Of a stretch of 64,000 nucleotides of DNA, positions 54,799 through 58,220 are shown one piece after another. The notes under the pieces were generated by a model. It made no database searches and was not told the DNA's origin. It was given only the letters and a program-made list of their open reading frames with translations. The translations under genes and the position numbers were made by a program. Positions within the stretch are counted from its first letter, which is position 1. The number at the start of each line of letters is the position of its first letter. The DNA comes from an uncultured Pelagibacteraceae bacterium (GTDB lineage: Bacteria > Pseudomonadota > Alphaproteobacteria > Pelagibacterales > Pelagibacteraceae): positions 1-64,000 of the forward strand of contig CACDTF010000003.1 in the NCBI GenBank assembly GCA_902555665.1. The letters are read 5' to 3'.

Positions 54799-55121
54799 CA
54801 TATATCGTTAACGACAATTGTATTAAGTGCAAACTAACAGACTGTGTTGATGTCTGCCCAGTTGATTGCTTCTACGAAGGTAAAAATATGCTTGTAATTA
54901 AACCCGATGAGTGTATAGATTGTGGCGTTTGCGAGCCAGAATGTCCTGTCGATGCCATAAAAGCCGACACTGAACCTGGAAGTGAAAAATGGTTAGAGAT
55001 CAATAAAAAATATTCTGAAATCTGGCCCAACATAAGTGAAAAAAAAGATCCACCAGCGGATCACGAGAAATTTAAAAATGAGCAAAATAAGTACGAAAAA
55101 TATTTTAAAGAAAATCTTTAA
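54795..55121 (+). CDS. fdxA: Ferredoxin FdxA, 7Fe/8Fe type
   Basis: '[47 protein letters not shown]'. Confidence 0.95.
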
Positions 55122-55965
55122 AGGCAAAACAGATAAAAAAGTGAAAAAAAAAGTTTCTAAAAAGAAGGTTGTAAAAGCTAAGAAAGCTAAGAAAGCTAAG
55201 AAAATAATTTCAAAAAAAATAAAAAAAATTGTTAAAAAAATTTCACCTAAAATAACCAAAACAAAAAAAGCTGTTAAAATTACAGAAACAACAGCTGAAC
55301 CAAAAGTAGATAATTTAAGAATTTCAAAAACAAATGAAGTTAAGCCTGAAATAAAAAAAGTTAAAAAACAAGAAACCGAAAAAAGAGAATACAAAATTAA
55401 AGATCATGTTGTTTATCCAAAGCACGGAGTAGGGCAAATTACTGAATTTAAAAAGATCAACATTGGTGGGATTGATGTTGAAACATATGTTATTAAATTT
55501 GAAAAAGACAAAGCTAATGGAATGGTCCCAGTAAACAAGCAGTCTCACCTAAGGCCGTTAGCAACTATCAATCAAGTTAATAAGTGTATTTCAATATTAA
55601 AAAGTAAACCAAAAATTAAAAGATCAATGTGGAGTCGAAGAGCACAAGAATATGAAGCGAAAATATCTTCTGGAAAAATATACGAATTAGCTGAGGTTGT
55701 CAGAGATTTAAACAAGGGTGATGATCTTATGGTTGACCAGTCTTATAGTGAAAGACAATTATTTGAAAAAGCTTATGAAAGAATTCTGTCTGAATTTCAG
55801 ATTGTTTTGAATGTATCATTAGAAGATACTCAAAAAAAATTAGATAAAGCACTAAAAAGAAATTTAGGTGGGCAGCCTCAACCCGTAACAGCTGCAAAAG
55901 CTCCAACTAGTGAACTACCTGTAGACGAGCCAATTTCTGATAACGACGAACCGATTGACGAGTAA
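55078..55965 (+). CDS. carD: CarD-family transcriptional regulator with lysine-rich N-terminal tail
   Basis: '[57 protein letters not shown]' CarD/TRCF-RID domain; tail '[30 protein letters not shown]'. Listed ORF starts at 55036; ATG at 55078 gives less fdxA overlap. Confidence 0.88.
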
Positions 55966-56010
55966 AAAAAAACGCCTCTCACACAAAACTGTAATGAGAA
56001 GCGTTTTTTG
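55966..56010. terminator. Bidirectional rho-independent terminator between carD and the lysine-rich peptide gene
   Basis: AAAACGCcTCTCA-loop-TGAGAaGCGTTTTTT stem with A and T tracts on the two sides. Confidence 0.75.
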
Positions 56011-56027: not shown

Positions 56028-56120
56028 CTATTTTCTTCTTCTTTTTTTTGCTTTTTTCTTAGCTTTTTTCTTAGCTTTTTTCTTAGTTTTCTTTGCCGCT
56101 TTTTTTCTTTTCTTAGGCAT
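56028..56120 (-). CDS. Lysine/alanine-rich histone-H1-like 30-aa peptide (not in supplied ORF track)
   Basis: Reverse strand ATG CCT AAG AAA AGA ... AAA TAG = MPKKRKKAAKKTKKKAKKKAKKKAKKRRRK; preceded by AAGGGAGCTAAAG (SD-like) and followed by a terminator. Confidence 0.65.
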   Translation of the reverse strand: MPKKRKKAAKKTKKKAKKKAKKKAKKRRRK

Positions 56121-56320
56121 CTTTAGCTCCCTTTTTTAGTTAAACGAATCATAATGATTCGTTGTTACCATATTTTTATTTTTTTCTATAAGTTATGTCA
56201 ATTATTTAATTAGAAGTTAAATTTTATAAAAATTATTTTTAACTTTTTATTTTTATAAAACTTTTTTTTATTAATTTAGTTAATGTTTATGCGGTTAATA
56301 AACAATTTTAATTAAATATT

Positions 56321-58051
56321 TTAATAAAGATCTTCTAACTGATTTTTATATTTTTCTGTAACTTTTTTTCTTTTTACTTTCATTGTTGGTGTCATTAAAC
56401 CATTTTCAATAGAAAAATTTTCATCTATTAATTGAATTTTTTTAATCTTTTCTAATAAAGTTAATTTTTTATTTATTTTTTCAATTACTTTATTTATTTT
56501 TTCTTTTTCATTCAAAAAATCTTTATTAGGAACAATTAAAGCAACTAAATAATTTTTTTTATCACCATAAACCATGCATTGATCTATCTCTGGTTCATTC
56601 GTAATCATATTTTCAATTTTAGCAGGTGAAATATTATCTCCACCAGCACTTACTATGATATCTTTTTTTCTATCAGTAATTTTTAAATAACCGTCATTTG
56701 GATCTATCTCTCCAATATCACCTGTATGTAACCATCCATTTATAATTACTTTTTCAGTTTCTTCTTTTTTGTTCCAATATCCTAGCATTACATTTTCACC
56801 TTTAACCAAAATTTCTCCATCTTCAGCAATTTTAACTTCATTTCCTTTAAATGGAGGGCCTACAGTTTCCACTTTGATTTTATGTATTGGATTGCAACTT
56901 ACTACTGGTGATGTTTCTGTTAAACCATAACCCTGGAGAGTAGGTAATCCTATGGCATTTAAAAATTCACCTATTTCTTTATCTAGAGCACCACCACCTG
57001 AAACAAAAGCTTTTAAATTTCCACCAAATTGTTTTTTTATTTTTTTTCTAACTAATATATCAACAATAAAATTCATTGATGTTTCAGAAAAGGTCATTTT
57101 TTGATTTAATAGTTTTTTTCTTCCCAGACGAAGAGTTGCTTCAATTAATTTTGCTTTAAAACCCTTTTGTTTTTTTAAATTCATGTTTATTTTGTTGTAA
57201 AGGTTTTGGTAAAACCTAGGGACAGCTGCCATAATTGTAGGTTTTGCTTCAGATATATTTTCTAAAAGTTTCTCAATTTTTTCAGCATAGAATACTCTAG
57301 CTCCTACTGCTATCTGTACAAATTGAAGACAGTGCTCATAAGAATGAGAAAGCGGAAGCCAAGTTAAAAATACTGGTCTTGAATTAAATAATGGTTTTGT
57401 AATTTCACACGATCCCTTAACATTATTTAAAATTCCACCATGACTTAAAATTACACCCTTGGGATTTCCTCCAGTCCCTGAAGTATAAATTATACATGCT
57501 GGAGACTTTCTATTTAATTTATTATTTTCGATTTTATCTTCTGCTAAGAAATTATTTTTTATAATAGAATTATAATCTAAATATCTTTCTTTGTTATTTA
57601 AATTTAAATTATTTATTACCTTATCTATTTGATCTAAAGTAATTACTTTTTTAATAAAATCTTTTTCATTAATTATATTATTTAATTTTTTTAGCATTTC
57701 ATTATTAGAAACAATAACTAAGCTAGGTTCACAATCTTCTATCAAATACTTATAATCATCTTCTATATAAGTTGTATATGCTGGAACTGTGATACCACCA
57801 GCTAACATTATAGCTAAATCAGAAACAAACCACTCAGGTCTATTCTCCGAAACTAAAAGACATCTATCGCCTTCTTTTATATTTTCTTTAATAACTTTTG
57901 ATAAATTTAAAATATTCTTTTCAGTTTGTTCCCATGTGTATGTTTTTTTGTTACTTGGGTTTAGCCATTCTAAAAAAATATCTTTTTTATTTTGTTTATT
58001 TGCCTGATTTACAAATAATTCGATCAAATTATTAAAATTATTTAAATTCAT
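56321..58051 (-). CDS. AMP-dependent (long-chain fatty acid) acyl-CoA synthetase
   Basis: 'CIIYTSGTGGNPKGVILSHGGIL', 'LQGYGLTETSPVVSCNP', 'WLHTGDIGEIDPNDGYLKITDRKKDIIVSAGGDNISP'. Confidence 0.93.
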   Translation of the reverse strand: MNLNNFNNLIELFVNQANKQNKKDIFLEWLNPSNKKTYTWEQTEKNILNLSKVIKENIKEGDRCLLVSENRPEWFVSDLAIMLAGGITVPAYTTYIEDDYKYLIEDCEPSLVIVSNNEMLKKLNNIINEKDFIKKVITLDQIDKVINNLNLNNKERYLDYNSIIKNNFLAEDKIENNKLNRKSPACIIYTSGTGGNPKGVILSHGGILNNVKGSCEITKPLFNSRPVFLTWLPLSHSYEHCLQFVQIAVGARVFYAEKIEKLLENISEAKPTIMAAVPRFYQNLYNKINMNLKKQKGFKAKLIEATLRLGRKKLLNQKMTFSETSMNFIVDILVRKKIKKQFGGNLKAFVSGGGALDKEIGEFLNAIGLPTLQGYGLTETSPVVSCNPIHKIKVETVGPPFKGNEVKIAEDGEILVKGENVMLGYWNKKEETEKVIINGWLHTGDIGEIDPNDGYLKITDRKKDIIVSAGGDNISPAKIENMITNEPEIDQCMVYGDKKNYLVALIVPNKDFLNEKEKINKVIEKINKKLTLLEKIKKIQLIDENFSIENGLMTPTMKVKRKKVTEKYKNQLEDLY

Positions 58052-58058
58052 AGTTACT

Positions 58059-58143
58059 TGGTGGGCGAAGAGAGAATCGAACTCTCACTTCTTACGAAAC
58101 ACGATTTTGAGTCGTGCGCGTCTACCAGTTCCGCCATTCGCCC
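58059..58143 (-). tRNA. tRNA-Leu (anticodon CAA), CCA encoded
   Basis: Reverse strand GGGCGAATGGCGGAACTGGTAGACGCGCACGACTCAAAATCGTG...GAGAGTTCGATTCTCTCTTCGCCCACCA; anticodon loop CTCAAAA. Confidence 0.95.
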
Positions 58144-58220
58144 TTGTGTTCAATTAAATTATATTTAAATATTATAAGAACTAAATTTATATTAAAACCA
58201 AAAAATGTTTCAAATACTTT
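58127..58220. repeat. 94-bp imperfect direct repeat, copy 1 (tRNA-Leu 5' end + spacer + dedA start remnant)
   Basis: agttccgccattcgcccttgtgttcaattaaattatatttaaatattataag...accaaaaaatgtttcaaatacttt; about 5 mismatches and no gaps against 60813-60906 by eye. Confidence 0.93.

Follow-up and report, generated by a model that had tools for sequence, protein, structure and literature searches.

In Chlamydia trachomatis, the small RNA (sRNA) IhtA controls the histone H1-like protein Hc1 by masking, with its loop 1, the initiation codon AUG of the encoding hctA mRNA (PMC4355289, PMC8343073). Lys/Ala-rich repeats and changes in length by repeat units characterize Hc1 and Hc2 of Chlamydia as well as AlgP of Pseudomonas (Hc2: PMC2848022). 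In the type I toxin-antitoxin pairs ShoB/OhsC and TisB/IstR, a short RNA encoded at another locus is complementary to the Shine-Dalgarno (SD) and start region of a small open reading frame (ORF). The RNA family that is central to the present analysis was described by Meyer et al. 2009 as the rhtB element, a bulged hairpin near rhtB that is perhaps a terminator or an inverted repeat, to which no function was assigned and for which they described no trans target (PMC2704228).

Here the rhtB RNA (Rfam RF01814) is proposed, with a probability of roughly three in four, to be a trans-acting sRNA that controls the translation of a conserved, H1-tail-like micropeptide, a reading in which transcription, translation, repression and peptide function are all predicted from sequence. 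As with IhtA and hctA, a trans-acting stem-loop sRNA would place its loop over the initiation codon for a small, highly basic protein, which condenses nucleic acid in Chlamydia and is predicted to do so here. Chlamydia, however, belongs to another phylum; IhtA has three hairpins and the rhtB RNA one; IhtA pairs with about 7 nt around the AUG and leaves the SD untouched, whereas the rhtB pairing extends over 13-18 nt including the SD; and the target here is a peptide of 20-41 aa. The chlamydial IhtA-HctA pair is best regarded as the closest system in logic and a convergent analogue, without a claim of homology. The micropeptide shares repeat composition and variation by repeat units with Hc1, Hc2 and AlgP, but it is far shorter and matches no Pfam or NCBIfam domain. 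The arrangement of its start region resembles that of ShoB/OhsC and TisB/IstR, but its gene is a single-copy core gene for a polycation and not for a hydrophobic membrane peptide.

A Lysine-Rich Micropeptide Gene Next to carD

The window, meaning the whole 64,000-nucleotide stretch of DNA that was analysed, belongs to contig 3 of a 1.07-Mb Pelagibacter (SAR11) genome whose named relatives are Pelagibacteraceae. A complete ORF on its minus strand (56028-56120, ATG to TAG) would encode the 30-aa micropeptide MPKKRKKAAKKTKKKAKKKAKKKAKKRRRK, in which 18 of the 30 residues are Lys and alanine recurs at four-residue spacing. The ORF lies tail-to-tail with carD (55036-55965, plus strand), which encodes a CarD/TRCF RID domain and a CarD C-terminal domain, and downstream of a gene for an AMP-dependent synthetase of the long-chain acyl-CoA ligase type (56321-58051, minus strand). 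GGGAG stands 7 nt 5' of the ATG, the start region reading AGGGAGCTAAAGATG (56118-56132, minus strand). A promoter is predicted at 56173-56201 on the same strand from the sequence and an alignment of relatives, with a -35 element TTGACA (56201-56196), a 17-nt spacer and a -10 element TAAAAA (56178-56173). The predicted transcription start is directly followed by a hairpin ACGAATCAnnnTGATTCGT at the 5' end of the mRNA, located at 56143-56163 (minus strand, AACGAATCAttaTGATTCGTT) and kept in relatives, which may shield the 5' end or act as an operator; in genus g5, the mRNA has a different hairpin at this end. Beyond the stop codon lies a strong hairpin (55968-56008), also kept in relatives; the 221-nt region folds with -44.7 kcal/mol (z = -4.2 versus shuffles). 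As it is placed between convergent genes, this hairpin can terminate both, and it is a predicted bidirectional terminator common to carD on the plus strand and the micropeptide gene on the minus strand.

The initial annotation, made from the window alone, had pointed to the complete minus-strand ORF, its SD-like GGGAG, its content of more than half Lys and the strong hairpin beyond its end, and all of these were found again. It had also reported three tandem 12-bp units at 56051-56086; the repeat exists, but its extent is slightly longer, with TRF placing 4.3 copies of a 12-bp unit at 56041-56090.

Protein and locus searches detected the ORF at the same carD-adjacent position in relatives, indicating that it is present beyond chance, and the complete genome of HTCC1062 also carries the gene, within record positions 410511-410600, as well as the rhtB RNA, at 1297616-1297698. 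The gene is single-copy and occupies one locus throughout the genus. The micropeptide loci that a pattern scan located in named genomes share a layout that consists of a TTGACA-17-TAAAAA-like promoter, the 5' hairpin, AGGGAGCTAAAG-ATG, the ORF and a terminator AAACGCTTCTC...GAGAGGCGTTTTTT, and inside the genus the AGGGAGCTAAAG-ATG segment is almost invariant. Frameshifts or stop codons in close relatives, which the initial annotation had named as evidence that would speak against the ORF, were looked for, and the 87 distinct coding sequences all retain the ATG, the reading frame and a stop codon shortly ahead of the terminator. These encode 50 peptides, of 20-41 aa and varying in length by whole codons, that start with MPK, MAK or MAT, cluster Arg/Lys at the C-terminal end and consist of 53% Lys, 21% Arg and 18% Ala. 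The comparison of synonymous with nonsynonymous change, which had likewise been suggested as a check, gave a synonymous fraction in frame 0 of 0.61 observed versus 0.30 expected among these 87 sequences, and no synonymous excess in the other frames; differences number 650 at third codon positions versus 306 and 97 at the others. The third-position bias and a synonymous excess confined to frame 0 indicate a coding gene, and on this comparative evidence the ORF is a genuine, conserved SAR11 small gene for a Lys/Arg/Ala-rich, H1-tail-like micropeptide.

A known protein family for the micropeptide was considered and rejected, as none is found in Pfam, NCBIfam or PDB. With Pfam and NCBIfam, no match was obtained at E up to 10 for this short, low-complexity query, properties that make the miss weak evidence. 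The resemblance to the tails of H1-like proteins that the initial annotation had proposed thus stands as far as the lysine-rich, H1-tail-like character is concerned, whereas membership of the Hc1, Hc2 or AlgP families finds no support. A phage origin was also rejected, as viral contigs contain no exact match of the start-region pattern. Judged by its composition, the micropeptide most likely binds nucleic acid electrostatically, with compaction of the nucleoid or of RNA as the predicted outcome.

The rhtB RNA and Its Gene

A scan of the genome collection with a 20-mer covering the SD and start codon returned two kinds of locus, the micropeptide gene and one in which the 20-mer lies inside an inverted repeat. 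At this second kind of locus a SAM-V-type riboswitch was suspected first; the Rfam scan identified it as RF01814, the rhtB RNA. The genome that contains the window (G000) has one copy, outside the window at C2:51578-51656 (plus strand), which scores 75 bits with the covariance model against a gathering score of 55 and has both the bulged hairpin and the conserved loop. Changes in the stem are compensatory and include C-G to U-A and U-A to C-G. Plain GATGGTCCCAAT...ATTGGGACCATC terminator-like hairpins that lack the antisense loop account for weak RF01814 matches in genus g4 (loci L314 and L315).

An extended -10 element, TGnTA, is found 15-17 nt before the rhtB hairpin in 73/73 distinct loci, compared to 4 in shuffled controls. 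A TATAAT-like hexamer comes next, and the element AATGCA is located 17-18 nt further upstream. Transcription from this promoter would set in at the hairpin and yield an RNA that contains the antisense loop, and by these signals the rhtB RNA is predicted to have a transcription unit of its own on the antisense strand. A run of U directly follows the hairpin in 28 of the 74 loci. A LysE/RhtB gene sits right behind the hairpin in 51/70 loci, starting 39-51 nt after the loop, and the other 19 lack this downstream gene, yet keep the hairpin, the promoter and the loop, indicating that the rhtB RNA is more than a leader of LysE. Since the hairpin directly precedes LysE in most genomes and poly-U is present at only a minority of the hairpins, an action in cis is also possible, and with it a second role for the hairpin at the LysE/RhtB gene. 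On C2 of G000 (L362:1079-1765), only a few bases separate the end of the rhtB hairpin from the AUG of a LysE/RhtB-type exporter gene, with scant room for an SD. A TIGR03643 gene lies upstream and divergent in most rhtB loci.

Complementarity of the rhtB Loop to the Micropeptide Start Region

The apical loop of the rhtB RNA comprises 13 nt, AUCUUUAGCUCCC in the Rfam orientation, and is the exact complement of GGGAGCUAAAGAU (56119-56131, minus strand), a segment made up of the micropeptide SD, the spacer and the AU of the start codon; according to the Rfam structure, the complement sits exactly in the apical loop. This segment is the predicted target of the antisense sRNA. The initial annotation had described the micropeptide as standing alone, a view that no longer applies, as its SD and start codon are mirrored in the loop of an RNA encoded elsewhere in the genome. 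The complementarity of the SD/start stretch to the loop also explains why RF01814 gives a weak score on the micropeptide leader as well. In genomes whose peptide starts with MPK, the pairing ends after the AUG, because the flank of the loop keeps AGCC, which its own stem requires.

An 18-base pattern, AGSCATCTTTAGCTCCCK, was scanned across 297 genomes of the family with one mismatch allowed. It matches all 101 genomes of the genus (by hand count, two matches in 84, one in 16 and three in 1), and the backwards pattern, as a control, gave 0 matches. Among the pairs listed, the micropeptide match ends in CCCT and the rhtB loop match in CCCG. Other targets of the loop in G000 were rejected, since the near matches start no gene: every near match with up to 2 mismatches, and those with 3 that were inspected, lie away from gene starts. 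The duplex between loop and start region has a predicted energy of -21.6 kcal/mol. The runner-up among 54 start regions in the window reaches -9.5 kcal/mol, and none of 500 shuffled loops goes below -14.5 kcal/mol. The complementarity found is that predicted for a trans-acting antisense sRNA at a ribosome-binding site.

A Matched Change in the Two Proposed Partners

The mRNA of 8 genomes carries GGGAGCUAAAAAUG. The rhtB RNA is detectable in 7 of these and has the loop CAUUUUUAGCUCCC in all 7, and in the 30 other genomes for which the two loci were compared, mRNA and loop both carry the standard base there. Two quick trees placed this change at 3-4 origins, whereas a better, albeit weakly supported, tree of 37 genomes built from CarD, TIGR03643 and glutaredoxin sequences is simplest with one origin, so several independent matched changes were rejected and only one is claimed. 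The matched C-to-U / G-to-A change is thus probably one coordinated event that has since been kept matched. There are 6 other changes inside the 13-nt duplex, 5 of which keep a G-U pair (CUCUC on the rhtB side in G368, G430 and G208; GCUGAAG in the mRNA of G280 and GUUAAAG in that of G409). The non-pairing change, in G222, falls at the duplex end. As judged from these alignments, the two sides have evolved in the coordinated manner of an sRNA and its target, with one origin most likely.

In genera g2, g5 and g6, no RF01814 match exceeds the cut-off, a result that in incomplete genomes does not prove that the RNA is lacking; the peptide gene persists there, and the spacers following the SD have drifted to GAUAAAG, GAAAAAA, GUUUAAG and GUUAAAG, in line with a relaxed constraint where the sRNA is missing. 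G131, G234 and G238, which are 92-97% complete and have the peptide gene, contain no detectable rhtB RNA.

Proposed Mechanism and Alternatives

In the proposed mechanism, the micropeptide gene would be transcribed from its own promoter into an mRNA of ~180 nt that begins with the 5'-end hairpin and ends at its own terminator, and the ~55-nt rhtB hairpin RNA would control its translation in trans. The loop would pair with the unstructured SD, spacer and start segment of this mRNA and block binding of the 30S subunit, so that less micropeptide would be made. Repression is the predicted direction because the duplex would cover both the SD and the start codon, and because the loop mirrors these elements of the gene, the micropeptide appears to be switched off by the rhtB RNA. 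As a polycation that likely binds nucleic acid, the micropeptide would compact the nucleoid or RNA, and the sRNA would tune the dose in which it is present. With somewhat less confidence, but still on balance, the two genes are taken to form a SAR11 riboregulatory circuit that has gone unrecognised so far, in which the rhtB sRNA would be devoted to a single target, the start region of a nucleic-acid-packing, H1-like micropeptide, and which would have arisen independently of IhtA-HctA while following the same logic.

A peptide of fewer than 60 aa whose SD and start codon face a short, separately encoded antisense RNA also recalls a type I toxin-antitoxin pair such as shoB/ohsC, in which the peptide would be harmful if overproduced and the rhtB RNA would be the antitoxin blocking its ribosome-binding site. 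Strongly cationic peptides can indeed be toxic, but the type I toxins described so far are for the most part hydrophobic, membrane-active peptides and none of the 50 micropeptides has a hydrophobic stretch; moreover, such modules are usually patchy in distribution, whereas this gene keeps one single-copy locus genus-wide and persists in genera without a detected rhtB RNA, so that a toxin is an unlikely role for the micropeptide. Still less likely is control in the opposite direction, whereby the micropeptide mRNA would pair with and open the rhtB leader hairpin and thereby turn on the LysE/RhtB exporter gene. The short distance from loop to LysE start in 51 of 70 loci and the poly-U tracts at 28 of 74 hairpins would suit such a leader, but the hairpin, promoter and loop are also kept where LysE is lacking, and a duplex positioned exactly on the SD and start codon of the micropeptide must affect the micropeptide gene first.

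The occurrence of the same 14-18 nt at both loci could also mean that a single protein, perhaps the peptide itself in an autoregulatory loop, binds there with no pairing between the RNAs. This is very unlikely, as the RNA made from the rhtB promoter is antisense to the mRNA site instead of repeating it, the boundaries of the loop coincide with the segment from the SD to the AU of the start codon, and G-U pairing survives 5 of 6 single changes, a constraint that a protein site has no need of. Least probable of all is that the ORF, which is very short and repetitive, is untranslated and its transcript serves only as the RNA partner of the rhtB RNA, given the synonymous bias, the whole-codon changes in length, the invariant start codon and SD, and the retention of coding even in genera in which no rhtB RNA was detected. 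Control of micropeptide translation by the rhtB RNA in trans is therefore the preferred reading.

SAR11 are the most abundant bacteria of the ocean, and their streamlined cells, poor in transcription factors, are believed to rely on post-transcriptional control; to our knowledge, sRNA-target pairs in this group are poorly known. The pair proposed here shows a matched change on both sides, it would equip RF01814, left without a function in 2009, with one that can be tested, and it draws attention to a conserved gene that is too short for standard ORF callers. If the proposal is true, the micropeptide would govern nucleic-acid packing in very small cells, and, in view of the parallel in Chlamydia, sRNAs that act on the start codon may be a recurring means of dosing polycationic, chromosome-packing peptides. 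The literature searched contained no paper that names RF01814 and none that links Pelagibacter to a lysine-rich peptide. For HTCC7211, a metatranscriptome in which starts are mapped is available.

Neighbouring Features of the Window

The N-terminal arm of CarD (55036-55400, plus strand), whose gene adjoins that of the lysine-rich peptide, is itself lysine-rich and contains a 10-residue protein repeat, with a 9-bp tandem unit at 55174-55203. The true start of carD is probably downstream of the listed GTG. Beyond the AMP-dependent synthetase gene, the short ORFs called on both strands at 58054-58168 correspond to a tRNA-Leu(CAA) gene.
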